Assembly (NCBI RefSeq): GCF_030408735.1
Contig: NZ_CP047204.1
Location: forward strand, 62,001 to 126,000
From: Corynebacterium faecale
GTDB taxonomy: Bacteria > Actinomycetota > Actinomycetes > Mycobacteriales > Mycobacteriaceae
Direction of reading: 5' to 3'
DNA length: 64,000 nucleotides
Made by a program: the position numbers and the translations under genes. Under the pieces are notes generated by a model that did no database searches, was not told where the DNA came from, and was given only the letters and a program-made list of their open reading frames with translations. This document shows positions 2-54,257 of this stretch, one piece after another. How positions within the stretch are numbered: position 1 is the stretch's first letter; every line of letters starts with the position of its first letter.

Positions 2-190
2 ATTGCCGGCTCCGAAGACGTATCCACCCCACCAGCCGTCGTCCAGATCATCGCCGACAACATCCCAGAAGCCAGCTTCGAAGTCATTGAAGGCGCAGCA
101 CATATCGGCAACATCGAGGCACCGGAACAGTACGGTGCCATGATTGCCAGCTTTCTCCAGCCTTCCATAAGGGAATCAGCGCGTCTGTGA
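2..190 (+). CDS. pcaD: Alpha/beta hydrolase C-terminus, probably 3-oxoadipate enol-lactonase (partial)
   Basis: Frame 2 is open from the left edge to a TGA at 188-190, giving 62 residues, so the N-terminus lies outside the window. The translation carries IAGSEDVSTPP and, about 30 residues later, EGAAHIGNIEAPEQY. This is the usual end of PcaD/CatD-type alpha/beta hydrolases, with the catalytic histidine in AAHIGN. PcaD hydrolyses 3-oxoadipate enol-lactone to 3-oxoadipate. The permease, thiolase and muconolactone isomerase that follow on the same strand fit that pathway. The last residues (QPSIRESARL) are encoded by a copy of the TCCATAAG word at 164-171. The family is fairly clear; the exact substrate rests on context. 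Confidence 0.7.
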   Translation: MAGSEDVSTPPAVVQIIADNIPEASFEVIEGAAHIGNIEAPEQYGAMIASFLQPSIRESARL

Positions 191-219
191 CGTTGCGAAT
201 CCGGTAGTTTCCTTTCCCC

Positions 220-276
220 AGAGCCGACTGTCTAGGGGATCCCTCCATAAGGGGGATCCCCTAGACAGTCGGCTCT
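220..276. terminator. 24-bp perfect hairpin with TCCATAAG word in the loop
   Basis: Arms 220-243 and 253-276 are perfectly complementary over 24 bp, and the 9-base loop 244-252 is TCCATAAGG. It lies 30 bp after the stop of the enol-lactonase fragment and before the permease. No T-run follows on the top strand, so intrinsic termination is uncertain. It could also act in RNA processing. Confidence 0.6.
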
Positions 277-442
277 ATGTGCTGGTTGCAGGACTATGGG
301 AGGTGCTGTTTTGGGTATCGGCTTCTTAGCGATCCGATATTGGACTCAAAAGTGATCTCTTGCGAGAGTATTGATAGATGTAATTCACATCACAAACAAT
401 TACCGTTGTTCCATTGTTGGATATTCCTCTGAGGGGGTCCCC

Positions 443-1783
443 ATGCAAACCTTGACCGAAACCCAGGAGCTGAAAGCAGCTCGTCGTAAAGCAATCACTG
501 CTGGCGGTATTGGAAACTTCGTTGAGTGGTTCGACTTTGCGCTCTACGCACAGTTCGCCACCATCATCGGTTTTCACTTCTTCCCATCGAATGATCCAAC
601 CGCCAGTCTTCTCGCAACCTTCGCCGTGTTCGCAGTGGGCTTCCTCGCACGCCCCCTCGGTGGCCTCCTCTTTGGCCAGTACGGTGACCGTAAAGGCCGT
701 AAGGCCGCATTATCCCTAGCGGTTCTCCTCATGAGTGGCGCGACCCTCGCCATCGGCCTAACCCCCTCCTACGCCACCATCGGCGTCGCAGCACCCGCCC
801 TGCTCCTTGTCTGGCGCATCCTGCAGGGACTTTCTGCCGGCGGTGAATACGCAGGAGCCAGTAGCTTCGTGGTGGAATACGCCCCAGTAGGGAAACGTGC
901 ACTCTTCGCCAGCATCAACCCGGTAGCAACCGCACTAGGCACCATCGGTGGCGCAATGACCGGCCTCATCGTCACCTGGGCTGTGCCCGACGATGCCCTC
1001 GAAGCATGGGCGTGGCGCATCCCCTTCATCGTCGCCGGCCCCCTCGGCATCGTAGGCCTGTACCTGCGCTCCAAGGTCGAAGAAACCCCAGAGTTCAGTG
1101 CAGTACTCAAGCAAACCGAGAACACGGGGAAACAACACGCCCCGGTAGTAGAGGCTTTCCGTACCACCAAGGGACGCATGCTCATTCTGTTCGGATGGTC
1201 AGCGCTCAATGCAGTGGCCTTCTACCTTCTGACCAGCTACATGGTTGCCTACATGACACAACGAGTTGGTTTCGAACAATCTGAAGCCCTCGGAATCTAC
1301 ATCATTGGTCTGGTCGCCTTCGCACTCGCCTGCCCCATCGCCGGCATACTCATCGACCGGTACGGACCACCCAAGGTCGCCGTCGGTTCCGCAATCCTCC
1401 TCGCCGCCCTAGTCATCCCAGCGTTCGGCCTTATGGAAACAGCAACCCTTACCTCCGCAATCATCGGACTGAGCATCTACGGCATGGTAGTAGCCTGCAT
1501 CGCAACCCTCACCCCGCTGCTCATGGTCGACCTCTTCCCAGTACACATCAGATACACCGCCAGCGCTGTGTCTTACAACCTGGCCTACGCAGTATTCGGC
1601 GGAACCGCCCCATACTTCGCCACCTGGATTGTCGCCCGCACTGACATCGGTGAAATGCCTGGCTATTACGTCATGAGTCTCTGCGTCCTTGGTGTCATCG
1701 TTGCCACGGTTGGCATGACCAAAATGTACCGAGGTAATAAGGTCCAGGATCCGGAAATCGCCAAGGTTATGGCAACCGTTTAA
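443..1783 (+). CDS. MFS transporter, metabolite:H+ symporter (MHS) family
   Basis: A 446-residue protein from ATG 443, preceded by GAGGGGG at 431-437. The upstream in-frame extension from 371 has no ribosome site and looks non-coding. The N-terminus has the MHS signature: VEWFDFALYAQF in TM1, then FLARPLGGLLFGQYGDRKGR between TM2 and TM3. Twelve membrane segments are expected. MHS permeases import organic acids such as 2-oxoglutarate, shikimate or aromatic acids with protons. Lying between an enol-lactonase and a thiolase, it probably imports an aromatic acid or a pathway intermediate. The gene contains no TCCATAAG word. Confidence 0.85.
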   Translation: MQTLTETQELKAARRKAITAGGIGNFVEWFDFALYAQFATIIGFHFFPSNDPTASLLATFAVFAVGFLARPLGGLLFGQYGDRKGRKAALSLAVLLMSGATLAIGLTPSYATIGVAAPALLLVWRILQGLSAGGEYAGASSFVVEYAPVGKRALFASINPVATALGTIGGAMTGLIVTWAVPDDALEAWAWRIPFIVAGPLGIVGLYLRSKVEETPEFSAVLKQTENTGKQHAPVVEAFRTTKGRMLILFGWSALNAVAFYLLTSYMVAYMTQRVGFEQSEALGIYIIGLVAFALACPIAGILIDRYGPPKVAVGSAILLAALVIPAFGLMETATLTSAIIGLSIYGMVVACIATLTPLLMVDLFPVHIRYTASAVSYNLAYAVFGGTAPYFATWIVARTDIGEMPGYYVMSLCVLGVIVATVGMTKMYRGNKVQDPEIAKVMATV

Positions 1784-1815
1784 ACCCTCCATAAAGGAAA
1801 GCGAAAGTCTGCATC

Positions 1816-3030
1816 ATGCGTGAAGTTGTCATCTGCGATTCAGTCCGAACCCCCATAGGCGGATTTGGTGGAAGTCTCCGAAATGTCACAGCACTGGAGC
1901 TGGGAACCACAGTTGCCCGGGCCCTTGTGGAAAGAAACGGACTCGATCCTGCAACGATTGATGAAGTGATCCTTGGTCAAGGCTATGGAACCACCGATGC
2001 CCCGTGCATCGGTAGGGCAGTGGCCCAGGATGCTGATTTCCCAGACTCCGTCACCGGACTTCACGTGGATCGCAGGTGTGGTTCCGGGCTTCAAGCCATC
2101 ATTGACGCAGCGATGCAGATTCAAACAGGCATGGCTGATGTTGTTCTCGCAGGTGGTGTTGAATCAATGAGCTCGGCACCGTTTTACTCCACCTCTGCAC
2201 GGTGGGGAGCCAACAAGAATGGTTTGGATTTTAAGGATTCCCTCGTTCACGGTCGTATCCATGCCGGTGGAGTATCCAAACCTATCGCCGGTGGAATGAT
2301 TGAAACTGCCGAAAATCTACGCCGCGAATTCAACATCAGCCGTGAAGACCAAGACGCCTTGGCACTGAGCAGCCACCAACGGGCGACTGCGGCGATGAAA
2401 GCTGGAAAATTCGATGACGAGATCGTTCCGGTGACCATAAAGCAACGAAAACACACCGTTGTTTTCGACACTGATGAGCATGTTCGCCCTAGTGCAACCC
2501 TCGAATCATTGGGCAAACTCAACCCAATGCGATTGCGTGAGGATGAACAAGCCACTGTTACGGCCGGTAACTCCTCCGGGCAGAATGATGCTGCCGCCCT
2601 CGTGATTGTGACAACCCCGGAGCGGGCTGCAGAGCTTGGACTGACCCCGAAGGTCTCCCTCGTCTCCTGGGCCCTGGCAGGCCTCGAAGGACACCGCATG
2701 GGGCTCGGACCAGTTGATTCCACGGCAAAGGCACTCAAGCGGGCAGGTCTCGAATTGAAGGATATTGACCTCATCGAGCTCAATGAAGCCTTCGCAGCCC
2801 AGGTGCTTGCCTGCACACGGTCCATGGGTCTTACTGATGCTGACCACCAGCGCATCAACGTCAACGGTTCAGGAATTTCCCTCGGCCACCCGGTGGGGGC
2901 AACCGGTGCGCGAATTTTGGCCAACCTGAGCCGGGAGATGCAGCGCCGTGATGCTCAATATGGACTGGAAACTCTCTGCATCGGCGGCGGTCAGGGCATC
3001 GCAGCGGTATTCAAGAACTTCCCTGGGTGA
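1816..3030 (+). CDS. Thiolase (acetyl-CoA C-acyltransferase, PcaF-like)
   Basis: 404 residues, the normal length for a degradative thiolase. All catalytic elements are present: nucleophile C88 in RRCGSGLQA, H358 in SLGHPVGATGAR, and C388 in CIGGGQG. Thiolases cleave 3-oxoacyl-CoA with CoA. Here the expected substrate is 3-oxoadipyl-CoA, giving succinyl-CoA and acetyl-CoA, because the neighbours are an enol-lactonase and a muconolactone isomerase. Start ATG 1816 is 33 bp after the permease stop, so they are probably cotranscribed. No 3-oxoadipate CoA-transferase is visible in the window. A general acetyl-CoA acetyltransferase cannot be excluded. Confidence 0.88.
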   Translation: MREVVICDSVRTPIGGFGGSLRNVTALELGTTVARALVERNGLDPATIDEVILGQGYGTTDAPCIGRAVAQDADFPDSVTGLHVDRRCGSGLQAIIDAAMQIQTGMADVVLAGGVESMSSAPFYSTSARWGANKNGLDFKDSLVHGRIHAGGVSKPIAGGMIETAENLRREFNISREDQDALALSSHQRATAAMKAGKFDDEIVPVTIKQRKHTVVFDTDEHVRPSATLESLGKLNPMRLREDEQATVTAGNSSGQNDAAALVIVTTPERAAELGLTPKVSLVSWALAGLEGHRMGLGPVDSTAKALKRAGLELKDIDLIELNEAFAAQVLACTRSMGLTDADHQRINVNGSGISLGHPVGATGARILANLSREMQRRDAQYGLETLCIGGGQGIAAVFKNFPG

Positions 3031-3139
3031 TTCACCCAGTGGGGCGGTGCGACTTCACCAGTCGCATCGACACAAGATCTGGCGCAATGCCAGTGAAAAT
3101 AACAACTACTTCTCCACCTATTGCGAAAGAGGACATACA

Positions 3140-3436
3140 TTGTTTTTCATGGTTCAGATGAACGTCATCCGCCCACACCACATCACTGACGAGGAGTGGA
3201 ATGACCTACGAAAGCGCGAAATGGAATACGGCCAGTCAATGATGCGGGACGGACAATTCCGCCACATCTGGCGAGTTGTCGGGGAGGTTTCCAACGTGAG
3301 CATCTTCGAAGTTGAGTCGAATGAGGAACTTCATAACCTTCTCTCAAATCTGCCACTCTTCCCCTACATGGAAGTTGATGTCACACCCCTGGCGCCACAC
3401 CCATCGGGACTGCCTGAAATGTATCAGTACGCTTAG
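3140..3436 (+). CDS. catC: Muconolactone delta-isomerase (TTG start)
   Basis: 98 residues, typical of muconolactone isomerase (about 95). The start is taken as TTG 3140, six bases after AAAGAGGA (3126-3133). This gives an N-terminus MFFMVQMNV that aligns with the family pattern MLFHVRMDV. Diagnostic segments are HIWRVVGE and VESNEELHNLLSNLPLFPYM. The enzyme isomerises (+)-muconolactone to 3-oxoadipate enol-lactone in the catechol branch, feeding the hydrolase at the left edge. The family is clear. An alternative ATG at 3149 would lose the first beta-strand. Confidence 0.85.
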   Translation: MFFMVQMNVIRPHHITDEEWNDLRKREMEYGQSMMRDGQFRHIWRVVGEVSNVSIFEVESNEELHNLLSNLPLFPYMEVDVTPLAPHPSGLPEMYQYA

Positions 3437-3457
3437 TAGAAGCACACTGTTTGGAAC

Positions 3458-3500
3458 GTAAATGCACCACCGGATCAGATTGATCCGGTGGTGCATTTAC
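3458..3500. terminator. Bidirectional hairpin terminator between catC and the LysR gene
   Basis: Perfect 20-bp arms 3458-3477 and 3481-3500 with a 3-base loop. It lies between two convergent genes, so it probably serves both. It carries no TCCATAAG word, unlike many hairpins further right. Confidence 0.8.
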
Positions 3501-3511
3501 TGGTTCAAACT

Positions 3512-4399
3512 CTAAGAATATGAGATATCCAGCACCGTTGTAAGGACTTTCTCCAGCAGCGCTGAAGGATTCTTCGTGCGCCATGCCACCGCGGATTCAA
3601 GGCCGGGAAGGGATTTATCATCGAAAGGAATAAACCGCAGATCATGACCGTAGATCTGCACACCTGTCACCGTGATACTGATGCCAATTCCACCTGCGAC
3701 ATAAGCCATGGTGATATCAGCATCGGGTGCTTCCTTGATCACCTTGGGGCTAAAATCCTCTTTATCAAAAATTGATTCAATGAGAGGGATCAAAGCTGAC
3801 CCGCTGTAACGGCGCGGTGTCACAAAACCCTCGTTCTCCAACTCTGTCGTGCGCACAGAACTACGCTCAGCGAACTTATGAGTAGAAGCAACCACAACCA
3901 CCGGGTCATGATGGGATACTGAGCGGGTACTCAAATCTGGATGCTCAAAAGGAAGCAGAACCTGGCCGAAATCGATCTCACCGTCGATAGTCGCGCTGGC
4001 GACCTGTGAGGCATTGGCGTATTTCTTGACTTCAATGTCAATCCCCGGATTTGCTTTAGTGATCGAGCGGAGAACCGCCGGCAACTGGGCAGCACCAACA
4101 GCTCCGGAATAACCCAAAACCAGGCGCCCTGCACTGCCATGATCGGCATTACGAACATTATGAACAGCCGTATCCACCGCAGAGAAAATCTGTTGAGCCT
4201 CCACCTTGAGAGCCTCACCCGCCGGTGTTAGTCGTGCACCACGGGGATGACGCTCAAATAACTGCACACCGAGTTGCTTCTCCAACTGGTGAATCTGCTT
4301 CGTCAAAGGTGGCTGAGCGATGAACAACCTCGCAGCAGCCCGACCAAAGTGGAGTTCTTCAGCCAGCACCAAAAAAGACTGTAATAATCGAAGTTCCAC
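3512..4399 (-). CDS. LysR-type transcriptional regulator
   Basis: 295 residues from GTG 4399, standard LysR length. The N-terminal winged helix-turn-helix is typical: LLQSFLVLAEELHFGRAAARL, then QPPLTKQIHQLEKQLGVQLFER and LTPAGEAL. An effector-binding domain fills residues about 90-290. It is convergent with catC. LysR proteins next to catechol or beta-ketoadipate genes (CatR, CatM, PcaQ types) usually activate them with muconate or a related intermediate, so it is a likely regulator of 443-3436. No operator was identified. The gene lacks the TCCATAAG word. Confidence 0.85.
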   Translation of the reverse strand: MELRLLQSFLVLAEELHFGRAAARLFIAQPPLTKQIHQLEKQLGVQLFERHPRGARLTPAGEALKVEAQQIFSAVDTAVHNVRNADHGSAGRLVLGYSGAVGAAQLPAVLRSITKANPGIDIEVKKYANASQVASATIDGEIDFGQVLLPFEHPDLSTRSVSHHDPVVVVASTHKFAERSSVRTTELENEGFVTPRRYSGSALIPLIESIFDKEDFSPKVIKEAPDADITMAYVAGGIGISITVTGVQIYGHDLRFIPFDDKSLPGLESAVAWRTKNPSALLEKVLTTVLDISYS

Positions 4400-4576
4400 G
4401 CAGTTTTCCTCTCGACACTCACCCTATGAAGCTCACTCACAGTGAACGCTAGATATTCATTCTCTATCTAAAAACCGTTAAATTCTCCTTTTTATGCGGA
4501 AATGCGCATATAAGTTCTTATGGGGTGTCCATAGAAACACCATCTGGGATGAAAACCGGGAAAGGGGATCGACACG

Positions 4577-5188
4577 TCAACTGCTGATCCCGAAAGCCTT
4601 CCCAATGGTTGAATCATCTTCCACAACCTCCAAAAGATAGGCCGCCAGATCCGCACGGGGGATAGTCCCACCCAGAGTTTCACCATCCGAGACCTCATGT
4701 GCCCGCCACGTACCCAAGGCATCCGCGCTCTTCAAACCAGTCGGCCGGACAATGGTCCACTCCAACCCGGAATCCTGCACCACTGCTTCCTGCTCATTGT
4801 GATCCGCTAAGGGCTTAGCCAACAGCACCTTCATCAACTGACGCAGTGGAACATGAAGTTGCTTGCCTGAATCACCAGCACCCAGAGAAGACTGGATGAC
4901 CAGACGACGGGCACCGGTTTCCTGCATTGCCTGAATGACTGACCTGGTCACCGCCGTGCGGGCATGCTTGATGCCCTTGGCAGCACCAACCGTAATAACC
5001 ACAGCATCCGCGCCCTCCACCGCTGTGCGCGCCACACCAAGATCAGTCGCACTACCCACCACCGCGGTGGCCCCAGCAGGAGCATTGCCGCTTCTCGACG
5101 CCACCGTCACCTCATGGCCTGCCTCCACAGCAGCAATAGCCAACTGCTCCCCGGTACCCTGTGACCCACCAATGATAGTGATGTTCAT
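4577..5188 (-). CDS. NAD(P)-binding oxidoreductase, atypical SDR / NmrA-like
   Basis: 203 residues from ATG 5188. It begins with a Rossmann strand and glycine loop, MNITIIGGSQGTGEQLA, followed by a basic stretch (VASRSG) that favours NADP. It continues with ADAVVITVGA and the late motif EWTIVRPTGL typical of atypical short-chain dehydrogenases (SDR_a5, NmrA, BLVRB-like). It lacks the classical YxxxK pair of catalytic SDRs. Such proteins are flavin reductases, nucleotide sugar enzymes or NAD(P) sensors; the substrate cannot be told. It is the last gene on its strand before the LysR gene. Confidence 0.75.
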   Translation of the reverse strand: MNITIIGGSQGTGEQLAIAAVEAGHEVTVASRSGNAPAGATAVVGSATDLGVARTAVEGADAVVITVGAAKGIKHARTAVTRSVIQAMQETGARRLVIQSSLGAGDSGKQLHVPLRQLMKVLLAKPLADHNEQEAVVQDSGLEWTIVRPTGLKSADALGTWRAHEVSDGETLGGTIPRADLAAYLLEVVEDDSTIGKAFGISS

Positions 5189-5232
5189 GTTGGTCCTCTT
5201 CTCCTCGGAAATGGTTTAGCCAAGCCTAGCTA

Positions 5233-5283
5233 CAGACAACCCCTCCATAAGGGAATGAACTTCCCTTATGGAGGGGTTGTCTG
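5233..5283 (-). terminator. 23-bp perfect hairpin with a TCCATAAG word in each arm
   Basis: Arms 5233-5255 and 5261-5283 pair perfectly over 23 bp around a 5-base loop. Each arm carries one copy of the word (5244-5251 direct, 5265-5272 inverted). It follows the stop of the riboflavin transporter at 5301 on the minus strand, where a terminator is expected. Confidence 0.75.
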
Positions 5284-5300
5284 CCACCCGGATACCAACG

Positions 5301-5993
5301 CTAACTAATAAGCACCGGCTGCTTCGCCTTCGCGGTTTTGCTCTGCTCTTTCTTCTGCACACGCATCCAGACGAAGAAACCCCAGGACACAAACACTCCA
5401 TAGACGAGGTAGAGCACAGCTGACGGATAGTAACCAGCGACCAGCAGCAGTGGCACACCGACGATATCCACGGCGATCCAGATCAACCAGAACTCGGTCC
5501 AACCACGAGCCATTCCATAGGTGGCGAGAACAGATCCGACGAAGATCCACGCATCCGCCCACGGGCCCCACGACCCCAGTGACTGGAAGATCCACGCACA
5601 CGTGATGGTTCCGACCACAGCAGCGATTACCAAACCGGCGCGTTCACGATTCGATGCCCACCGCGGCATCACCGCCACAGCCTCATCAGATGTCGCACCG
5701 CGTCGAGCAGCCGACCACTGGTACCAGCCATAACAACTCACGATGATGAACATCACCTGACGCCCAGCCTGTCCATAGAGATCCAGGTCCTGGGGGGTGT
5801 TGAAGAGACCGCCCATGAAGACGGTGAAAAGAAGTGCGTTTCCCACAATGCCGACTGGCCACGCCCATACGAGACGCCGCATACCACCCCACGCACAGGC
5901 GAGGCCGAAAAGATTGCCGATGATTTCACGCCATAGGATCGGAATACCGTTGATCCACAAGGTAGCGTCGAGTAATTCGGTTATAGGATTCAT
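5301..5993 (-). CDS. ribM: Riboflavin transporter RibM (PnuX), PnuC family
   Basis: 230 residues from the second of two in-frame ATGs (5993). The first (5999) is too close to the AGGGGA ribosome site. The protein is largely hydrophobic, with about seven membrane segments and a lysine-rich tail. PnuC-family features include GWYQW and, near the end, TEFWLIWIAVDIVGVPL. PnuC proteins move ribosylated vitamins; the corynebacterial PnuX/RibM branch imports riboflavin. The FMN riboswitch directly upstream on the same strand supports riboflavin over nicotinamide riboside. Confidence 0.88.
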   Translation of the reverse strand: MNPITELLDATLWINGIPILWREIIGNLFGLACAWGGMRRLVWAWPVGIVGNALLFTVFMGGLFNTPQDLDLYGQAGRQVMFIIVSCYGWYQWSAARRGATSDEAVAVMPRWASNRERAGLVIAAVVGTITCAWIFQSLGSWGPWADAWIFVGSVLATYGMARGWTEFWLIWIAVDIVGVPLLLVAGYYPSAVLYLVYGVFVSWGFFVWMRVQKKEQSKTAKAKQPVLIS

Positions 5994-6096
5994 GATCATT
6001 CCCCTTTAAAGGATGTGAGACATGGAATCCTCGGGGCTGTCATTCCGGGTTCACCAATACACCTGTGCCAAACACACCGATGCGTTGCCAAAACCG

Positions 6097-6259
6097 CGGT
6101 TCTCTTTCATCCGGACTATGACCGTCGGCTCCGGAATCACACCGGATCTGCTGACCCACCCCCTCCATAAGCGGAAGTAGTGGCGCTCGCGGGCTTGATC
6201 AGCCACATCTGGTGGATGGTCTTACCGCCGGTGGGGAGTTACACCCCGCCCTGAGAACA
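6097..6259 (-). promoter_or_regulatory. FMN riboswitch (RFN element)
   Basis: Read on the minus strand, the region starts with GTTCTCAGGGCGGGGTG and CCCCACCGGCGGTAA. It continues with AAGCCCGCGAGCG, then GATCCGGTGTGATTCCGG and GCCGACGGTCATAGTCCG, and closes with GGATGAAAGAGAAC. These are the conserved RFN blocks in order. It ends about 100 bp before the ribM start, which allows control of translation or termination by FMN. The variable arm contains a TCCATAAGCGGA word (6164-6175). Confidence 0.95.
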
Positions 6260-6444
6260 GATTCAGCTTAGCCGGATTCAGTGACAAATCAACTAAATTT
6301 CACAGGTTATCAGTGAGCACACTTAAACCGGCTCACCCTCACATGATGAATTTGGGGTGACAACCTGATGAAAGATTCCTGAGCCACCGGCCTTAATTCC
6401 TCTATGGAACTACCGTGGCCCATAAGCCACTTGAGGAGGACTTT

Positions 6445-7881
6445 GTGACCATTACCCATCCGGATTTCCTTGAAGATAAGCGCCTTCCTTCCATAAGCGA
6501 AGGAACTGGTCTGGAAGCGGAAGGGGGTGACACACAGGTATTTCCTCTCGCGCGTCGGAGACTGGCCATGGATCATGATTCCTCTATGGAAACCATCACG
6601 TATGTGCTGGATACGTCGGTGTTGCTCTCAGATCCGCTGTCGCTGACTAGGTTTGCGGAACATGATGTGGTTCTGCCGATTGTGGTGATCACTGAGTTGG
6701 AGGCCAAGCGCCATCACCCGGAGCTTGGCTTTTTTGCTCGTCAGGCGTTGCGGATGCTGGATGAACTTCGGGAGATCCATGGTGATCTGTCGAAACCCCT
6801 CCCCATAGGTGATCAGGGTGGGCACATTCAGGTGGAGCTCAACCATCAGAGCGTGGAGACCCTGCCGGTTGGTTTCCGGGTCGCGGGAAATGACACACGC
6901 ATTCTTGCTGTGGCGAAGAATCTGCAGCTTGAGGGTCATCGGGTGGTGCTGGTTTCCAAGGATCTGCCGATGCGAATCAAAGCGTCGGCAAGCGGGGTGG
7001 CCGCGCAAGAGTACCGCGCGGCGCTGGCGCGCGACCGGGGGTACACGGGTATCACCACAGCTCATATCGCCGATGGGCAGCTGCAGGAGCTCTATGACAC
7101 CCACGAAATCTCCATAGAGGAATTGGCGCATCTGCCGGTCAATCATGGCCTCACCCTGCGCTCGCCTATGGGTGGGTCGGCGCTGGGCAGGTTGACCCCG
7201 GATAGGACTATTGAACTTGTGCCCGGCGATCAGCAGGTGTTCGGGATTTCGGGACGCAGCGCGGAACAGCGGATCGCCATCGACCTGCTTCTCGACGACT
7301 CCGTCGGCATCGTCTCCATAGGCGGCGCGGCAGGTACCGGCAAGAGTGCCCTCGCCCTGTGTGCGGCTCTTGAAGCTGTTATGGAACGTCGCGTCCATAG
7401 AAAAATCATCGTTTTCCGCCCGATGTACGCGGTGGGCGGCCAAGAACTCGGTTACCTTCCTGGCGATCAGGACGAGAAAATGGGTCCGTGGGCGCAGGCG
7501 GTGTTTGACACCCTGGGCTCCATGGTGAGCCCGAACATCATTGATGAAGCCCTCTCCCGCGGCCTTCTTGAAGTCCTTCCGCTCACCCACATCCGCGGCC
7601 GTTCGCTTCACGACGCGTTCGTGATCGTCGATGAAGCACAATCCCTCGAACGAAACGTCCTCCTGACGATGCTGTCCCGCGTAGGCCAGAACTCACGAGT
7701 TGTTCTCACCCATGACGTGGCTCAACGCGACAACCTACGCGTCGGGCGGTACGACGGCATCGTCTCCGTCATCGAATCCCTCAAGAACCACGAGCTGTTT
7801 GCCCACATCACCCTGCAGCGCTCCGAACGATCCAAAATCGCTGAACTGGTTACGCGGGTCCTCGACTCACCGTCGCTATAA
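6445..7881 (+). CDS. PIN domain-PhoH ATPase fusion (PhoH2-like)
   Basis: 478 residues from GTG 6445, four bases after GAGGAGGA. ATG 6571 is a fallback start. An N-terminal PIN nuclease domain begins at [13 protein letters not shown], with acidic residues continuing in ITELE and the [10 protein letters not shown] segment. A PhoH ATPase follows, with Walker [10 protein letters not shown] (about residue 295) and Walker [14 protein letters not shown]-PhoH proteins of actinobacteria are ATP-dependent RNA-unwinding ribonucleases. The first 50 residues before the PIN domain are not typical of the family and hold two copies of the iterated word, so this extension may be partly non-coding or species-specific. 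Confidence 0.85.
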
Positions 7882-7897
7882 AATCTGGGGACATGAG

Positions 7898-7980: not shown

Positions 7981-8895
7981 TTAGTAACCCTTCGCCACGT
8001 CGACCTCAGTGAGCATGCGCTCGCCGGCGATGAACCGCCGGTAGTTCTCGGCCACCACTGGTGCCAGGAGTTCATCCATAGAGGCGAGGGTGTTCGCCGT
8101 GTGTGGGGTGATGATCACATTGTCCCGCCCCCACAGGGGATGACCATCGGGTAGGGGTTCTGGATCGGTGACATCGAGTCCCGCCCCGCTTATGGAGGAT
8201 GCGTTGAGTGCGCGGACGAGTGCATCGGTATCGACCACTTCACCACGGGCCACATTGATCAGGTGGGCTCCCGGTTTCATCGCATCAAATTCTGCGTCAC
8301 TGAAGAGTCGGCGGGTGGCATCGGTTAGAGGCACGGTGACAACTACATGATCGGAGGTGCGAAGGGCGGAGTGTAATTCGCTTATGGAGAGGGTGGCGTC
8401 GAAAAGCTCATGCGGCTCCCCGGATCGGGTGACAGCCAGGGAACGCGCACCGAAAGGACGCAGCATCGTTGCGAGCTCGCGGCCGATTCCTCCGCCGCCG
8501 ATGATGGCGACGGTGGTGCCATCGAGCCAGGAGGTGCTGGCATCGAGGTGGGCGCGGGGTGACCAGCTGTCGGCACGGACCATGGTGGGATGCTTATGGA
8601 GCAGCCCGAGGAGCAGCGCGATGGCTGCTTCGGCCACCTGCCGTCCATAGACGCCGGAGGCGTTGGACCAGCGACGGTCCGGGGTGATGTGGCCGTCGGC
8701 GAAGTAGTCGTTTATGCCGGCGCTGGGCAGCTGCACCCATCGGATGTGGGGTGGCAATGCGGGGAAGTCGGTTCCGGGTGTCTGAGTGAAGACGAACCCC
8801 TCCGCTTCGCCTATGGACGAGACGAGGGTGGCGCCGGCGGCACGGAGCGCGGCGACTGTGTGGGGGTAATCGCCGAATCCAACGAAAATGCGCAT
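7981..8895 (-). CDS. D-isomer-specific 2-hydroxyacid dehydrogenase
   Basis: 304 residues from ATG 8895. The NAD-binding core has AIIGGGGIGRELA near residue 135. The catalytic arginine lies in INVARGEVVD, an acidic residue in DVTDPEPLP, and the histidine in ITPHTANT. The family reduces 2-oxoacids (SerA, glyoxylate or hydroxypyruvate reductase, lactate dehydrogenase). The protein is short and has no ACT domain, so it is unlikely to be the main SerA. At least seven copies of the TCCATAAG/TCCATAGR word sit inside this one gene, coding mostly for SIS, LME and SME tripeptides. Confidence 0.85.
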   Translation of the reverse strand: MRIFVGFGDYPHTVAALRAAGATLVSSIGEAEGFVFTQTPGTDFPALPPHIRWVQLPSAGINDYFADGHITPDRRWSNASGVYGRQVAEAAIALLLGLLHKHPTMVRADSWSPRAHLDASTSWLDGTTVAIIGGGGIGRELATMLRPFGARSLAVTRSGEPHELFDATLSISELHSALRTSDHVVVTVPLTDATRRLFSDAEFDAMKPGAHLINVARGEVVDTDALVRALNASSISGAGLDVTDPEPLPDGHPLWGRDNVIITPHTANTLASMDELLAPVVAENYRRFIAGERMLTEVDVAKGY

Positions 8896-8988
8896 GGGGG
8901 GATTCTCCTCTATGGACAGGGTGGCTGCCGGGTGTCGGTTTCTAATCCCCTGACGTTGAGCCCACCATAGAGGAATCCGCTTATGGAG

Positions 8989-10368
8989 TTATTGACGACG
9001 TATCTTCGCCCCCGCGGATCGGTTTTGCGCTGTGGTGTTGTTGAGCTCGATCTGGGGATCGGGGTTGTAGAAGTTCCGGGGTGGTCGATAACCGTAGCGG
9101 CCGGTGTCGGGATCGAGTTCGGATCGACCGCGGGTCGGGCTGTCTATGGGGGAGTCGTTGTTGGGCCTGTGGTGGGTGCGGCAGTAGATGTGCATGTTCT
9201 CAATGTCGGTGTGCCCGCCCTGTGCCCATGGGATGACGTGGTGAACTTCGCAGTTGATGGCGGACTGATCGCAACGGTGGTGGATGCAGACCCCTTCGGC
9301 AGCCATGAGTGCGATGCGTTGTTCGATGTTGGCGGTGCGTTGGGTGCGGCCGAGGTGCAGTGGCCGGCCGGAGTCGGGGTCGTGGACGATGAGGAAATCG
9401 AATTTCGCGGCGCCCAGCGCAAGGATGTCCATAGGCGTGAGTTCGCAGTGGGTGTTGGTGGGGAACCGGCTGGTGGGGGTCATTTCCTCGATATCCTTTA
9501 TGGACATGCTGATCGCGATCGTGCCGACACCCCCGTTGCGCTCCGTCTGCACCTCGTTGTGGCGCAGCAGAAGCTGGTGAAACGCATCGACGCGCCGCTG
9601 TTGCAGCCCGCGGGTGTCATCCTCCGGCTCCACCGAGCTGGCATAACCCGGGTTGCGTGCGGGCGCCAGCGTCGCCTCCAACAACGCTGACGTGGCGGCG
9701 GGCAGGTAGGCACGGACGAAGCAGCCACCATCGGCGTCGGGTTTACCGATCACGATGTGCCGCTTCCGCGCGCCCGCATGCGGGTCCCGGTCTATGGAAG
9801 CGGCATTGAGTTGTGCGACTTCGGCGCGCACCCAGGTGCGCAGGTCTTCAACAGAGCGTGTCGACGCCTCCTTCACCGCCCGGACCCTCAGCTCCATAAG
9901 CGAATCCTGCTTATGGAGCTTTTTGAGTTCGCGTTCGATTAGGGTCTGCTTCTCGGCGCTTATGGAGTTCTCGAAAAGAAGCTGCCGTCCATAGGCGCGA
10001 TCGATGTCGGCGCGGGGGTTATCTGGGTCGTCGAGTTCGCCGAAGTCGCGCTTGCCGCGGCGTAGGCGGTTGAGGGCTTCGTTGGTGGAGATGTCGAGAT
10101 GCTGTGCCAGAAAGGTTGTAGGTCGCGTGGAACCGACCAGGTTGCCCGCGCGGCTTTCCTGGATCAGGTGGGCGAGGGCGGCGTCGAAAAGCGTTTTCTG
10201 GTTGAAGGCCTTCTCGAGTGTGATGGCGGCGTCGAGGTGGGCCTGGATGAGGGGGCCGCCATCCGGCGGTGCGGGGTGGTGTGCGGCGTCGGCGAGCAGT
10301 TGGGCCAATTCGCTTATGGAGCGACTGATGATGGCGGACAGTTCGTCTATGGAGGACATGGCTGACAT
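8989..10368 (-). CDS. DUF222 / HNH endonuclease-domain protein (13E12 family)
   Basis: 459 residues. The N-terminal three-quarters match DUF222, the helical region of the mycobacterial 13E12 repeat family. A C-terminal HNH motif has CIHHRCDQSA, then EVHHVIPWAQGGHT and NMHIYCRTHH. A second in-frame ATG lies at 10359. These proteins are abundant in mycolata, are often next to mobile DNA, and have largely unknown roles; HNH implies metal-dependent nicking or cleavage. The gene is unusually rich in the iterated word, including a facing pair at 9890-9920 within the coding sequence. Confidence 0.85.
   Translation of the reverse strand: MSAMSSIDELSAIISRSISELAQLLADAAHHPAPPDGGPLIQAHLDAAITLEKAFNQKTLFDAALAHLIQESRAGNLVGSTRPTTFLAQHLDISTNEALNRLRRGKRDFGELDDPDNPRADIDRAYGRQLLFENSISAEKQTLIERELKKLHKQDSLMELRVRAVKEASTRSVEDLRTWVRAEVAQLNAASIDRDPHAGARKRHIVIGKPDADGGCFVRAYLPAATSALLEATLAPARNPGYASSVEPEDDTRGLQQRRVDAFHQLLLRHNEVQTERNGGVGTIAISMSIKDIEEMTPTSRFPTNTHCELTPMDILALGAAKFDFLIVHDPDSGRPLHLGRTQRTANIEQRIALMAAEGVCIHHRCDQSAINCEVHHVIPWAQGGHTDIENMHIYCRTHHRPNNDSPIDSPTRGRSELDPDTGRYGYRPPRNFYNPDPQIELNNTTAQNRSAGAKIRRQ
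9890..9920. repeat. Facing pair of TCCATAAG words inside a coding sequence
   Basis: AGCTCCATAAGC (9890-9901) and GCTTATGGAGCT (9909-9920) are exact complements around GAATCCT. The 12-bp stem lies wholly inside the DUF222/HNH gene, between predicted helices, and keeps the frame open. Similar pairs elsewhere lie at gene ends. Confidence 0.85.
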
Positions 10369-10579
10369 GGAAGCAGGCGGGACCGATTAGCAGAAGTGGA
10401 GGGCCGTGCGGTCTGTGGATAACTTTCGCATTTCACAGGTTGAGGGCTCTGTGGGAAAGTCACGGGAACCGGAAGGGGGTCGAAGGAAGTCTAACGGTGT
10501 TGTGTTCTGCCTTTTTCTGTCATGGGGTGTTTTCGGTACGATGGTTGGCAAGTCAACAAAATCCTTTATGGAGGGAAAT

Positions 10580-11005
10580 ATGATTATTTCTAGCGCGATC
10601 CTTCGTGGTGTATCCGGTGCATATCTGCTTCAGTCTGGTTATGGAAAGCTGGGCATGCCGGTTGAGGCAGCCGAGGGCATGCAGGGTTTTGCAGCTTCTG
10701 GTGTGCCAGCGATGGGCAAGTTGGATCCGGATACCTTCGGAAAGGTCGTCGCCTACTCTGAGCTGGGTATCGGTGCGGCTCTGGTGACCCCGGTCGTGCC
10801 GAATCGTCTGGCAGGTCTGGGGCTGGCTGCGTTTTCGGCGGGTCTGCTGTCGATTTATTTCCGCAACCCTGCCATGACGCAGGAGGATGGTATCCGTCCG
10901 TCTGAGGATGGTCTGTCGCTGTCGAAGGATCTCTTCCTGGCGGGTATGGCTGGCGCGCTGGTGTTTGGCCCGACCAAGAAGCGCAAGAAGTCCAAGAAGA
11001 AATAA
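10580..11005 (+). CDS. Small DoxX-like membrane protein
   Basis: 141 residues from ATG 10580, preceded by GGAGGGA. Three or four hydrophobic stretches are visible: ISSAILRGVSGAYLLQSG, VVAYSELGIGAALVTPVV, LAGLGLAAFSAGLLSIYF and DLFLAGMAGALVFG. It ends in a lysine cluster (KKRKKSKKK). Length and pattern resemble DoxX-family integral membrane proteins of mycolata. No enzymatic residue can be assigned and the function is unknown. It appears monocistronic between the HNH gene and the biotin locus. Confidence 0.7.
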   Translation: MIISSAILRGVSGAYLLQSGYGKLGMPVEAAEGMQGFAASGVPAMGKLDPDTFGKVVAYSELGIGAALVTPVVPNRLAGLGLAAFSAGLLSIYFRNPAMTQEDGIRPSEDGLSLSKDLFLAGMAGALVFGPTKKRKKSKKK

Positions 11006-13574: not shown

Positions 13575-13598
13575 TCCATAAGCGGATTCGCTTATGGA
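13575..13598 (-). terminator. Facing pair of TCCATAAGCG words as short hairpin
   Basis: TCCATAAGCG (13575-13584) and CGCTTATGGA (13589-13598) are exact complements around GATT. The 10-bp stem lies seven bases after the stop of the upstream minus-strand gene and before the next one. It has the position and shape of a terminator built only from two words. Confidence 0.7.
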
Positions 13599-48735: not shown

Positions 48736-48738
48736 AAC

Positions 48739-49086
48739 ATGACCGCCTCCCAGATACTTCCCCTGACTGACCTGTCCGACTGCTGCTCACTGGCCACCGG
48801 CCCCCTGTCTGATGATGAGGCCGAGCGCTATGCCACCCTGTTCAAGGTACTGGCTGAACCGGTGCGGTTGCGGCTGCTGTCACAGTTGGCTGCCGGTGGA
48901 TGTGGGCCGGTCAGCGTCAATGAGCTCACTGAATTGATGGGGTTGAGCCAGCCGACCATCTCCCACCACCTGAAGAAGATGACCGAAGCCGGCCTGCTGG
49001 AACGCACCCGTGAAGGGCGCACGGTTCTGCACACGGTGCGTCCTGAACTGTTCGCCGAGTTGCGCACCGTTCTGCAGATCGGTTGA
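48739..49086 (+). CDS. arsR: Arsenite-responsive repressor ArsR
   Basis: 115 residues from ATG 48739. SmtB/ArsR winged helix: LFKVLAEPVRLRLLSQLAAGGCG, VNELTELMGLSQPTISHHLKKMTEAGLLERTREG. Cysteines fall at 15, 16 and 55, the arsenite-binding triad described for C. glutamicum ArsR1. This differs from the ELCVCDL type. It is divergent from acr3-arsC and 8 bp upstream of the flavoprotein. Confidence 0.92.
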   Translation: MTASQILPLTDLSDCCSLATGPLSDDEAERYATLFKVLAEPVRLRLLSQLAAGGCGPVSVNELTELMGLSQPTISHHLKKMTEAGLLERTREGRTVLHTVRPELFAELRTVLQIG

Positions 49087-49094
49087 TTACACCC

Positions 49095-50099: not shown

Positions 50100-50109
50100 C
50101 CCCCCGGGT

Positions 50110-50676
50110 TCAGAGTTTAGGCCGTCCCCGACGCACACTCACTGTTGGATCACCGGGGATCCAGAAACGCAGCGGTGCGTCGGTGTTCTTGGAAATCCCG
50201 ATGCGTGGGCCACTGACCCATTCCGGACGGTCGGTGGGTTCCTCCAAGTGAAAATCAGGACCGTTGACCGGTGCGTGATTATCGGATATCTGCAGGTTGA
50301 GGGCCTGGCCCAGGTTGCCGGGCCCCTGCGCCAGGCGGGGGAAGGGGACGGGGCCGCGGCGTCGATAAGCTTCTTCTTCCCCGGCCACCACCTCGCCCGC
50401 ACGCAGCAGGACACCCTGCCCCGTGCCCTCCGGCGCGCAGGCAATATTGCCCGCGCGGTGGATGCCATAGGAGATATAGACATACATGTGGCCACCGGGG
50501 CCGAACATTGCGGCATTGCGGGCGGTCTTGCCGCGGTGCGTGTGGGCGGCGGCGTCCTCGGCACCGAGATAAGCCTCCACCTCCGTCAGGCGGATCGACA
50601 CCCCGTCGTGGGTGAAGATACAACCCAGAAGCTGTGGGGCGACAATATCTGCGGTCTGGAGGAAATCAATGGACAT
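50110..50676 (-). CDS. mpg: 3-methyladenine DNA glycosylase (Mpg/AAG type)
   Basis: 188 residues from ATG 50676. Family segments: APQLLGCIF, RLTEVEAYLGAEDAAAHTHRGKTARNAAMFGPGGHMYVYISYGIHRAGNIAC, VLLRAGE, QGPGNLGQALNL, GPRIGISK. The glutamate in TEVEAY is catalytic in AAG. It excises alkylated purines. Convergent with ArsO. A decayed copy of its 3-prime half lies at 53505-53848. Confidence 0.9.
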   Translation of the reverse strand: MSIDFLQTADIVAPQLLGCIFTHDGVSIRLTEVEAYLGAEDAAAHTHRGKTARNAAMFGPGGHMYVYISYGIHRAGNIACAPEGTGQGVLLRAGEVVAGEEEAYRRRGPVPFPRLAQGPGNLGQALNLQISDNHAPVNGPDFHLEEPTDRPEWVSGPRIGISKNTDAPLRFWIPGDPTVSVRRGRPKL

Positions 50677-50811
50677 GGCAGCGATTGTAGGTCGGTGAGC
50701 TTGTTACGGTTCCAGGCTCGCGATTCCGGACACAGCGGTGGCAGAAGTACCTAGACTGAAAGAAAACCGCTTATGGACGACCAGCCCCACCAGTGTGGCA
50801 AGGAGGCCTGC

Positions 50812-51417
50812 ATGGCTACTTCACCCAGAACATACCTTTTTGATCTCTACGGCGTGATCATGAAAGTCGAGGGGCCCGCGCAGTTCGAGCGGGTGAACCG
50901 CGTGATCGGCGAACCTGGCAAGACCGAGCTGCTGCATGAGGTGTACCGGGAGCTGCGCCCCGATCTGAACGCCGGACGCATCACCGAAATCAGCTATTGG
51001 AACCAGGTGCAGGCCCGCGTCGGATTATTGGATTTCGACTTCGGCGAGGCCATGGCTGCTGACTACGCGGGCATCTCCGAAATGGATGAGCAGGTCAAGG
51101 CCTTCGTGGATGAACTCAAGGCCCGGGGGCACCGGATCGGGGTGCTCTCCAATATCCCCCAGGGTGTGGCGAAGAAGCTGCGTGACGTGCATGGAGACTG
51201 GTTGAATTCCCTGGATGCCGTCCTCTTTTCCAGTGAGATCGACACCGCCAAGCCAGACCCCAAAGCCTATGAACTGGCCATCGAGGCCCTTGGGGTGCCG
51301 GCTTCAGAGATCACCTTCATCGATGACCGCCAGGTCAATGTTGAGGCTGCCCGCGAGGCAGGCATGAACGCAATCCACTACTCAACTCTTGATGCACTGA
51401 AGGCGGAACTTCCATGA
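50812..51417 (+). CDS. HAD-family hydrolase
   Basis: 201 residues from ATG 50812, preceded by AAGGAGG; the upstream ATG 50773 lies in an iterated word. HAD motifs: YLFDLYGVI (motif I, DxYG in place of DxD/T), IGVLSNIP (motif II), K in DTAKPDP and acidic pair in TFIDDRQVNVEAA. The class resembles phosphatase/haloacid dehalogenase subfamily IA. Its stop overlaps the gamma-CA start by four bases. Lost from the duplicated block further right. Confidence 0.82.
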   Translation: MATSPRTYLFDLYGVIMKVEGPAQFERVNRVIGEPGKTELLHEVYRELRPDLNAGRITEISYWNQVQARVGLLDFDFGEAMAADYAGISEMDEQVKAFVDELKARGHRIGVLSNIPQGVAKKLRDVHGDWLNSLDAVLFSSEIDTAKPDPKAYELAIEALGVPASEITFIDDRQVNVEAAREAGMNAIHYSTLDALKAELP

Positions 51418-51971
51418 ACAACGGCCCCCTGATCCTCCCATTCAACGGCAAAACCCCACGCATCCATCACACAGCCTGGATCGCACCCAATGCCACCATC
51501 ATCGGCGATGTGGAGATCGGCCCGGACGCTTCAGTCTTCTATGGCGTGGTGCTGCGCGGCGATGTCAACGCCATCCGCATCGGCGCGCGAACCAACATCC
51601 AGGACAACTGTGTTCTCCATGTTGATGGCGACGCCCCCTGCACCCTCGGCGATGATGTCACCGTCGGCCATATGGCGCTCGTCCACGGCGCGACGGTGGG
51701 CAACGGCACCTTGGTGGGCATGAAAGCCGGGTTGCTCTCCCGCAGCGTGATCGGTGAAGGTTCCCTCATCGCCGCCGGTGCGGTGGTGCTGGAAGGCCAG
51801 GAAATCCCCGCGAAATCCTTGGCCGCCGGCGTGCCGGCGAAAGTGCGACGAGAGCTTGACGACGAACAATCCGCCGCCTTCATTCCTCACGCGGGACGCT
51901 ATGTCGAGACCTCCAAAAACCAGGCTTCCATAAGCGAAGCATTGTCGCTGGATGAGGTACGTTTTAGCTGA
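51414..51971 (+). CDS. Gamma-carbonic anhydrase-like hexapeptide protein
   Basis: 185 residues, ATGA overlap with the HAD gene. Left-handed beta-helix repeats: TAWIAPNATIIGDVEIGPDASVFYGVVLRGDVNAIRIG, with zinc histidines in NCVLHVD and VGHMALVHG. The tail is helical. The PaaY/YrdA/CaiE class is partly active as carbonic anhydrase or thioesterase. An iterated word (51927) encodes ASISEA near the end. The 3-prime 410 bp is nearly identical to 53849-54257. Confidence 0.86.
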   Translation: MNNGPLILPFNGKTPRIHHTAWIAPNATIIGDVEIGPDASVFYGVVLRGDVNAIRIGARTNIQDNCVLHVDGDAPCTLGDDVTVGHMALVHGATVGNGTLVGMKAGLLSRSVIGEGSLIAAGAVVLEGQEIPAKSLAAGVPAKVRRELDDEQSAAFIPHAGRYVETSKNQASISEALSLDEVRFS

Positions 51972-52065
51972 GTTCTCCGGTCATAGTGCTGTTCTCGCCG
52001 GCGTGATAGCTTGAAACAGTCAGTGGATGTCTTATCTCCACATATCTGAGGTAGGGGAGTTTCAG

Positions 52066-52101
52066 ATGGGTACACCTTTTTGTCAGCCGGACCATGGTTG
52101 A
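52066..52101 (+). pseudogene. Eleven-codon remnant of a TM2-domain gene start
   Basis: AGGGGAG followed by an ATG reading MGTPFCQPDHG and stop. The 40-bp region matches the start of the intact TM2 gene at 55642 (VGTPFYQPDNG), including the ribosome site. It is the truncated partner of that gene in a broken duplication. Confidence 0.75.
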
Positions 52102-52112
52102 GGCGGCCTGGG

Positions 52113-53342
52113 TTAATCCATCTGGATACCCAGTAAACCAACCCCCTGTGAAGTGAGGGTATAGCGCAGGGGCTTATGGGTAACGAGGTGAACCAAATCA
52201 GCTTCCTTTAGTTCCTTCAGGTAGACACTGATCGTCTTTTCCGAAAGCGCAATATATCTTTGGGCACCTTTGAGCGACAGGGTTTGATCAGCACCGAAAA
52301 GATAGATTTGGCCCAGGAGGAAAAGAAGGTTGACATGATGATCTTTCCATTCCTTCTTTTTTCTTAAGGAAGCGATGGAATCCCGTAGGTAACCCATGAG
52401 GTGGTTTCTGGCTTCGAGGTTGCTCAAGAGATCAGACTGGGCATCAATGAGGATGTTGAGCATGATCAGGGCAAATGGTGTCCCATCTCCACGATTTAAC
52501 GGGGACTCCACTTCCTGGAATGCCTTGTAATAGTTTGATTTGTCAGCATTGATCGCCCGGGAAAGAGTGAGAGCTGTAGGTGGTGACAATAACTTGCTCA
52601 ACTGGGTCCCCAGAAGATATCGCCCGGTACGTCCATTGCCATCATAAAACGGGTGGATTGTTTCAAACATGAAATGTGAGATCAGTGCTGGTACAAGACC
52701 TGGGATTTCGATATTGTGTACCGTATCCAGATAGATTTTCAGCGCACTGATAATCTTACTTTCTGGCTGAAAGCCACTGTGTACGACTTTCTGACGTGCG
52801 TCGTGGATATCCACGGACCCTTTTCGGAAGAGCTCACCATCTGGAACGTCATCCGCAGCCAATTCACCGTCCATCAGCTTGTCATACAGTTGACGTAGTT
52901 CCTCCGGTGAAGTGGGCAAAAGTCCTTCATTTCTCGCCAGGGCCAAGTAGAGGTGCGAGATTTCACGGAATCGTTTTCTGTCAGACCCGGTGTTTTCCTC
53001 CAATGCGGCTTCAATATCACGACGAGTTGAATGAACCCCCTCGATGGCATTAGTCGAAATCACTTCATCAAAGAGTAGCGATCGGAGATAGTGGTCGGTT
53101 GCTCCACCTGGGAGTGCCCGCCAGAGCTCTTGGATCTTTTGTTCTAACCGATAGATGCGCTCACTCTGGATTAATATTTCCGGGGTGATCAGGCAGAACA
53201 AAGGGTGGGGGCCGATAGGGAAATTCCAGCTGATAGTCGACTCAGAGTTAAACCTCGTTGTGTAGAGGGCTTCTGCACTGGCTGCATCATTGATATGGAA
53301 TTCTTTCTTAAGCGTACGGTAAGTCGATCTGCGCAGCATCAT
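52113..53342 (-). CDS. Second Fic-domain protein (DUF4172-free, wHTH C-terminus)
   Basis: 409 residues from ATG 53342 (53339 possible). Fic signature HPFYDGNGRTGR with catalytic H230, complete. N-terminal inhibitory motif T97-NAI-E101-G102 in DEVISTNAIEGVHSTRRDIEAALE, so class II. C-terminal region NLLFLLGQIYLFGADQTLSLKGAQRYIALSEKTISVYLKELKEADLVHLV looks like a winged helix. The DNA is clearly AT-richer than the flanks and has no iterated word. It sits inside a disrupted duplication, so it was likely inserted there. Confidence 0.9.
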   Translation of the reverse strand: MMLRRSTYRTLKKEFHINDAASAEALYTTRFNSESTISWNFPIGPHPLFCLITPEILIQSERIYRLEQKIQELWRALPGGATDHYLRSLLFDEVISTNAIEGVHSTRRDIEAALEENTGSDRKRFREISHLYLALARNEGLLPTSPEELRQLYDKLMDGELAADDVPDGELFRKGSVDIHDARQKVVHSGFQPESKIISALKIYLDTVHNIEIPGLVPALISHFMFETIHPFYDGNGRTGRYLLGTQLSKLLSPPTALTLSRAINADKSNYYKAFQEVESPLNRGDGTPFALIMLNILIDAQSDLLSNLEARNHLMGYLRDSIASLRKKKEWKDHHVNLLFLLGQIYLFGADQTLSLKGAQRYIALSEKTISVYLKELKEADLVHLVTHKPLRYTLTSQGVGLLGIQMD

Positions 53343-53407
53343 GGACTTCTTCTTTTCTAATCATGCTAAATGGTCTGAAATTGTCATATTGAAGAAAAAT
53401 TAGGGTC

Positions 53408-53443
53408 CCTAAACGGAAGAAAAGCAATTTTCTTCCGTTTAGG
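53408..53443. promoter_or_regulatory. 16-bp perfect palindrome upstream of the second Fic gene
   Basis: CCTAAACGGAAGAAAA (53408-53423) and its exact complement (53428-53443) surround GCAA. It is centred about 83 bp before the Fic start in an AT-rich spacer. It may be an operator for the Fic winged helix, or a terminator. A second small stem AAGTCTT/AAGACTT is at 53484-53500. Confidence 0.6.
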
Positions 53444-53504
53444 AACATGCTACACGGCTGCTAAAGGTGGAAATACACCAAAAAAGTCTTTTCAAGACTT
53501 GGTT

Positions 53505-53848
53505 TTAGGCCGTCCCCGTCGCACACTCACAGTGGGGTCACCGGGGATCCAGAAACGCAGGGGGCAGCGGCGTTCTTGGAGATTCTGATGCGTGGCCCGC
53601 TGACCCAGTCCGGACGTTCTGCGGGTTCCTTCAACTGGCAATTCGGGCCGCCTATGGGGGCGTGGTTATCGGATAGTTGGAAATTGAGCGCCTGACCCAG
53701 GTTGCCGGGCCCCTGCGCCAGGCGGGTAAAGGGGACGGGGCCGCGGCGTCGATAAGCTTCTTCTTCCCCGGCCACCACCTCACCTGCGCGCAGCAGGACA
53801 CCCTGCCCTGTGCCCTCCGGTGCGCAGGCGATATTGCCCGCGCGGTGA
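53505..53848 (-). pseudogene. mpg remnant (3-prime half, frameshifted)
   Basis: Minus-strand sequence equals the second half of mpg: it reads VVAGEEEAYRRRGPVPFTRLAQGPGNLGQAL, then NHAPIGGPN, WVSGPRIRISKN. The frame then shifts so the normal RFWIPGDP end is lost. Similarity to 50110-50459 is moderate, with many substitutions. It breaks off abruptly at GCGCGGTG and joins gamma-CA sequence. Confidence 0.85.
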
Positions 53849-54257
53849 CGTCAACGCCATCCGCATCGGCGCGCGGACCAGCATCCAGGACAACTGTGTT
53901 CTCCATGTTGATGGCGATGCCCCCTGTACCCTTGGCGATGATGTCACCGTCGGCCACATGGCGCTCGTCCACGGTGCGACGGTGGGCAATGGCACTCTGG
54001 TGGGCATGAAAGCCGGGTTGCTTTCCCGCAGCGTGATTGGCGAAGGTTCCCTCATCGCCGCCGGTGCGGTGGTGCTGGAAGGCCAGGAGATCCCCGCGAA
54101 ATCGTTGGCCGCCGGCGTGCCGGCGAAAGTGCGACGAGAGCTTGACGACGAACAATCCGCCGCCTTCATTCCTCATGCGGGACGCTATGTCGAGACCTCC
54201 AAAAACCAGGCTTCCATAAGCGAAGCATTGTCGCTGGATGAGGTACGTTTTAACTGA
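53849..54257 (+). pseudogene. Gamma-carbonic anhydrase 3-prime duplicate (N-terminus missing)
   Basis: Starts at DVNAIRIGARTSIQDN and runs open to the normal C-terminus (DEVRFN), almost identical to 51560-51971, with few silent changes. The first 47 codons are missing and replaced by mpg antisense sequence. No good start is seen, so it is scored as a fragment. It may still make a short product if started from the 53820 region. Confidence 0.85.

Follow-up and report, generated by a model that had tools for sequence, protein, structure and literature searches.

Why does one short DNA word crowd a single region of a Corynebacterium chromosome, and what might read it there? The region lies in a 64,000-base stretch of the 3,147,058-base genome of Corynebacterium faecale (C1:62001-126000 of G000; hereafter the window), in which TCCATAAG is the commonest 8-mer, with 24 forward and 24 reverse copies (48 observed versus 0.95 expected under a first-order model). 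An earlier interpretation made from the letters alone, here called the sequence-only reading, had noticed this strong excess and the equal orientations (24 and 23 in its count), both of which our counts reproduce, and had proposed a genome-wide signal of the uptake type. The word is, however, mainly local: it clusters within roughly 100 kb around a single gene (8989..10368, minus strand), which encodes a 459-residue protein with a DUF222 and an HNH endonuclease domain. This DUF222/HNH protein is our tentative candidate for its reader.

Consensus, distribution and conservation of the word

The word-rich domain covers positions 164..54220 of the window and continues to about C1:44-143 kb. The 106 CCATARG sites in C1:44-140 kb gave the consensus [CT]TCCATARGCGRA, with A or G permitted at the seventh base and C or T ahead of the core. 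Besides the copies of TCCATAAG, the window holds 34 of the TCCATAGR form (TCCATAGG plus TCCATAGA, 17+17), in agreement with the roughly 34 reported earlier, and 12+16 copies of TCCATAAGCG. No longer flank is common to the sites; the information is limited to about 10-12 bp, and the copies lie in unrelated genes. An expanded repeat family, of the repetitive extragenic palindrome (REP) or miniature inverted-repeat transposable element (MITE) kind, was rejected since the copies share no extended unit; the single repeat family that would have overturned the sequence-only reading is thus not seen. The one exception is an exact 76-bp direct repeat (window 51891-51966 and 54177-54252) that flanks a Fic-like gene (52113-53342) and carries one TCCATAAGCG per copy.

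The sites show no preferred orientation. Among the 92 [CT]CCATARG sites in C1:44-126 kb, 62 lie inside selected open reading frames (ORFs), namely those with a match in a relative, with 29 on the coding and 33 on the opposite strand; the remaining 30 lie outside, which bears out the description of copies in both genes and spacers. Over the whole genome, TCCATAAGCG is split into 30 forward and 35 reverse copies. Chi and KOPS are polar, abundant short chromosomal words; the present word resembles them as an abundant short word but differs in its balance (24/24 in the window, 29/33 against gene direction), and a polar signal of their type was rejected, as had been argued from the letters. The 142 sites in C1:44-140 kb form 16 neighbour pairs at most 45 bp apart, comprising 5 facing, 6 diverging and 5 same-direction pairs; close pairs therefore exist.

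Whole-genome counts place most copies in one region. In total, 46 of the 65 TCCATAAGCG copies fall within C1:22,953-142,724 (120 kb of 3.15 Mb), 10 at C1:2,685-2,736 kb and 9 elsewhere, and TCCATAAG reaches 141 copies versus 95 for the reversed word. In a scan of 1.11 Mb of sampled G000 sequence (10-kb bins, four top words per bin, p below 10^-4.5), the word was among the listed top words only in the bins at 50-90 and 130-140 kb. Together, the clustering of TCCATAAGCG and the bin scan indicate a word that is mainly local and not genome-wide: the excess stands in the whole-genome count, but over-representation throughout the genome, as for DNA uptake sequences (DUS) or uptake signal sequences (USS), is not found. 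Since recipient-side uptake by itself would not give a local hill, the uptake-type claim is unsupported for the TCCATAAG word. Local clustering of conserved sites, as for domain sites of the matS/parS type, is what the word displays.

Further profiling revealed a hill of [CT]CCATARG sites that declines on both sides of the DUF222/HNH gene, more steeply on the left, in G000 and three relatives (G136, G145 and G195). The 10-kb bins to its left and right hold 2.2/2.2 sites per kb in G000, 3.4/1.5 in G136, 3.3/1.9 in G145 and 1.7/1.8 in G195, and farther out in these four genomes the density drops on the left side to 0.1-0.7 per kb (20-50 kb away) and on the right side to 0.6-1.0 (20-40 kb away), against 0.06 per kb in distant stretches. 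For the shorter pattern [CT]CCATAR, the background was 0.17 sites per kb, calculated from 500 kb of distant stretches.

The sites are also conserved beyond expectation. CCATAR is kept at 82 of 117 aligned sites in G136, 86 of 119 in G145 and 39 of 53 in G069 (70-74%), versus 0.33, 0.38 and 0.30 for composition-matched 6-mers (30-38%), and at 27 of 65 in G195 with a control of 0.20. Outside selected ORFs, it is kept at 11 of 18 sites in G136 (control 0.25) and 12 of 19 in G145 (0.23), and for each of the four word-bearing relatives the excess persists when the DUF222 gene is set aside. The C. glutamicum-like genomes G153 and G129, which lack the word at this site and served for comparison, have CCATAR at 7 of 50 and 4 of 48 aligned sites, not above their controls (0.20 and 0.18); the aligned-gene comparison with C. 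glutamicum that had been suggested thus separates word-bearing relatives from genomes at control level. Altogether, these data support a selected, non-polar DNA word.

The DUF222/HNH gene and the genomes that carry it

The gene at 8989..10368 lies inside the peak of the hill. Its product belongs to the DUF222/HNH family, with both domains scoring above cut-off (PF02720, E 4.5e-14; PF01844, E 4.6e-05) and the HNH residues C361, C366, H376, H377, N391, C396 and H400 invariant in 15 aligned sequences, which makes an active nuclease plausible. A search of solved structures by sequence gave four marginal matches, three of which are HNH proteins. PADLOC returned no match for the protein, and a plasmid and phage search found no close homologue, with partial matches under 60% identity in 3 and 1 records, respectively. 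Nine TCCATA words lie inside the gene between 9428 and 10354 (9428+, 9499-, 9793-, 9893+, 9912-, 9961-, 9988+, 10315-, 10348-), including a facing pair within the coding sequence at 9892..9918 (CTCCATAAGCGAATCCTGCTTATGGAG). Just 3' of the gene, at 8911..8987, stand TCCATAGAGG (8911, minus) and a second facing pair, CCATAGAGGAATCCGCTTATGG (8965-8986). Inside the gene, the density of [CT]CCATAR is 7.3 per kb in G000, 8.8 in G145, 8.0 in G136, 8.9 in G069 and 3.0 in G195.

A survey of 242 Corynebacterium genomes, with the reversed word as control, showed that word and gene occur together. TCCATARGCG lies far above the control in four genomes (91/18 in G000, 60/14 in G136, 59/14 in G145 and 144/13 in G195). 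The fragmentary G069 was counted as a fifth word genome by local density only: it has 16 TCCATAAG in 10 kb, and its genome total is near control (20 TCCATARGCG versus 17 reversed). G143, with 17 versus 16, was left out. The listed copies lie mostly in the syntenic region in G136, G145 and G195, and in G195 they spread more widely, into other stretches of contig C12 too. DUF222/HNH orthologues of at least 60% identity (E <= 1e-70) are present in five of the 242 genomes, the same five that carry the word locally; at the same E value, the best match in the other 237 genomes has 50% identity over part of the length.

At the syntenic site of G153 and G129, 62 bp separate the matches to the neighbouring dehydrogenase and DoxX genes, no DUF222 match intervenes, and each genome lacks TCCATAAG over 80 kb. 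DUF222/HNH is the one compared central ORF that is present in all five word genomes and unmatched at this site. G258 and G192 have 3 copies of TCCATAAG in 80 kb and 1 in 100 kb, respectively; they were left out of the empty-site comparison, as the G258 stretch stops short of the DUF222 site and the flanking genes in G192 are apart or not found. In G195 only, a 10.5-kb block (C12:434749-445262) stands between the DUF222 gene and the DoxX gene, whereas in G000, G136 and G145 the two adjoin. It contains 19 sites, 8 of them TCCATAAGCG, and genes with ABC-transporter, major facilitator superfamily (MFS), PALP, NAD-binding and decarboxylase domains; at a guess, it is perhaps a metallophore operon.

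Neighbouring features and other words

The DUF222/HNH gene is flanked on the left by a D-2-hydroxyacid dehydrogenase-like gene (7981..8895, minus strand), which is just as word-rich, and on the right by a DoxX-like gene (10406..11005, plus strand; Pfam 21.5 bits, below the cut-off of 23.6). Further left lies a PhoH2 RNA helicase gene (6415..7881, plus strand); it bears conserved words, and G153 and G129 have the gene too. The spacer that separates the genes at 4577-5188 and 5301-5999 contains a long, perfect inverted repeat with a facing pair (5233..5283); the pair has counterpart words at the related locus L010 of a metagenome-assembled genome. Two facing words make up a perfect 24-bp palindrome at 13575..13598 (TCCATAAGCGGATTCGCTTATGGA). 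One TCCATAAGCG (6164..6173, plus strand) falls in the variable loop of a flavin mononucleotide (FMN) riboswitch (RF00050; 6095-6262, minus strand), upstream of the PnuC-like transporter gene at 5301-5999. This riboswitch is the sole RNA family in the window at Rfam gathering scores, and a known RNA family was rejected as source of the word. Out of 92 ORFs with at least 150 residues, family searches covered about 48, and those with matches include thiolase, PhoH2, bioB, sirtuin, AMP nucleosidase, PutA, panB, panC, xylulokinase and arsenic genes.

The bin scan of G000 also picked up local words of other kinds. The bin at C1:20001-30000 holds nine TATCCACA versus 0.5 expected, which we take to be DnaA-box-like, and the bin at C1:2920001-2930000 holds seven copies each of the 8-mers ATGTTTCA, CGTGAAAC and GTGAAACA, presumably parS-like. 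Three further bins stand out by very strong words of their own, at 2670001 (CCAGTTAC), 2700001 (ATTATGGA/AAGCCATT) and 2740001 (CAACCACG); these are perhaps local repeats.

A second word, found while seeking controls, has a different distribution. CGTCGAYAAGC occurs 439 times in G000 versus 2 for its reversed form, and at least 40 times in 54 of the 73 genus genomes examined; in 48 genomes of other families it stays at or below 45 copies, roughly at control levels (largest ratio 16 to 3). Its copies are balanced between the chromosome strands (223 and 216) but unbalanced against genes: 61 sites in 500 kb divide into 14 coding, 31 opposite and 16 outside heuristic ORFs. On its 5' side the word is flanked by G-rich sequence, with faint signs of a three-base rhythm. 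Of the 242 genomes, 14 have 40 or more copies of a second dialect, GCATCGGCAAGC. The part of the sequence-only reading that stands is accordingly that the genus has an uptake-like genome word, CGTCGAYAAGC with its dialect, which would fit the uptake idea better than TCCATARGCG. In their distribution, CGTCGAYAAGC and GCATCGGCAAGC resemble the uptake-sequence dialects described in PMC3630211. At least three DUF222 matches are found in 45 of 46 genomes with at least 40 CGTCGAYAAGC and in 5 of 15 without (61 genomes; Fisher 3e-7, uncorrected for relatedness), and two of these five, G006 and G076, carry GCATCGGCAAGC. ComEC (PF03772) was found in each of the 72 genus genomes in which it was sought, whether or not they have CGTCGAYAAGC; it does not discriminate between them and was rejected as a marker of word-bearing genomes.

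A possible reader of the word

The non-polar orientation, the selection on sites, the hill over one gene and the shared occurrence of word and gene together suggest a recognition word of the DUF222/HNH product. We favour, at somewhat less than an even chance, a cis-acting double-stranded element that is bound and probably nicked by this protein, its likeliest use being on the donor side. Nicking or marking at nearby words would cause the surrounding tens of kilobases, the gene included, to be passed on and recombined more often; as nicking would favour transfer of flanking DNA, gene-linked words would spread along with the gene and their density would drop with distance. The benefit would be tied to linkage, in its simplest form through donor-side transfer or recombination of flanking DNA. 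Donor-side use is preferred because, under a recipient-side signal, words at any genomic position would be favoured, which does not match the observed hill. A wider proposal, which we regard as rather doubtful, is that DUF222/HNH proteins might read a whole Corynebacterium family of words, TCCATARGCG locally and CGTCGAYAAGC and GCATCGGCAAGC genome-wide, in a nuclease-based marking or gene-exchange system.

Several observations weigh against recognition by the DUF222/HNH protein. Four of the five word genomes are close relatives and hence do not represent five independent events; the link between gene and word may reflect descent alone, and in the seven-genome tree the placement of G195 is weak (support 62). 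The alignable part of the 140-kb region amounts to 65.5 kb with G136 and 22.5 kb with G129, and non-coding conservation in G069 (4/9) and G195 (2/4) rests on small numbers and is not significant. The peak extends over the dehydrogenase gene no less than over the DUF222 gene, the adjoining kilobase being equally dense with 8 sites in each of G000, G145 and G136, and the sequence examined at the weaker cluster (C1:2,685-2,736 kb) contains no DUF222 gene. At three other 33-kb DUF222 loci, including that of the second DUF222 copy of G000, TCCATAAG has 0-2 copies; GGCGTCGA-type words are frequent at the 33-kb DUF222 locus of G084; and 18 short loci (L035-L052, about 4 kb each and of little power) show no comparable word. 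A word hill at every DUF222 gene was rejected on these loci, with the GGCGTCGA-type words of G084 reserved. In addition, the AlphaFold model of the protein is poor (mean predicted local distance difference test, pLDDT, 68.1), and it matched no fold in the PDB (E 0.001 or better).

The main competing explanation, which we consider unlikely, is a chromosome-organising or segregation domain, in which the words would be sites of a nucleoid or segregation protein and the DUF222/HNH gene a bystander. Local, non-polar sites conserved across about 100 kb, with a peak wider than the gene, would suit such a domain, and the separate cluster of parS-like 8-mers at C1:2,920-2,930 kb also counts in its favour; yet the presence of the word tracks the DUF222/HNH gene among the 242 genomes, C. 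glutamicum-like relatives keep the neighbouring genes without the words, and the density exceeds that known for matS or parS. Distinctly less probable is a local dialect of CGTCGAYAAGC read by the competence machinery in DNA uptake. Although TTCCATAAGC and GTCGATAAGC share 8 of their 10 positions and the word is non-polar with some facing pairs, it is not genome-wide, it lacks the G-rich 5' flank of the genus word, and ComEC fails to separate genomes with and without that word.

We give a still lower probability to an introgressed segment from a donor that used TCCATARGCG as its genome-wide word. The 144 copies of G195, the most of any genome and partly in other stretches of contig C12, hint at such a source, but none of the 242 genomes exceeds this count, gene order and neighbours are largely common to C. 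glutamicum-like genomes, and the block unique to G195 carries words too. The inverted repeats that some facing pairs make in spacers are reminiscent of terminators or regulatory hairpins; an RNA-level signal is nevertheless very improbable and was rejected as the main role, given the absence of strand preference against genes (29 versus 33), the location of 62 of 92 sites within selected ORFs, and the rarity of close facing pairs (5, at most 45 bp apart, for 142 sites).

Recognition by the DUF222/HNH protein can also be set beside known systems. Like matS/parS, the word marks a chromosome region by local clusters of a conserved sequence; unlike them, it is spread through a nuclease gene and the genes beside it and was found only in gene-bearing genomes. 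It resembles the DUS of Neisseriaceae, as treated in PMC3630211, in being a short conserved word in genes and spacers with related species-specific forms; DUS number thousands per genome there, whereas the local word forms a hill round one gene, with 46 of 65 TCCATAAGCG in 120 kb. REP13E12-type DUF222/HNH proteins are named among repetitive elements of mycobacteria in PMC10589994, and the domains of the central gene place it in this family, but the other DUF222 loci examined lack a TCCATAAG hill. No report of a DNA word tied to DUF222/HNH proteins was found in titles and abstracts or in passages of PMC10589994. Searches of open-licence literature, mostly at the level of listings, showed no description of TCCATARGCG or CGTCGAYAAGC, and earlier reports may exist.

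A hill of a conserved word round a lineage-specific nuclease gene, found only with that gene, points to a site-and-reader pair, a kind that we did not find in open-licence literature. To our knowledge, the actinobacterial DUF222/HNH family has no established role, and the proposed pairing gives its proteins a directly testable function. Distribution alone separates such gene-linked words from genome-wide, uptake-like words, and the genus-wide word hints that Corynebacterium has a sequence-guided system of exchange or marking.

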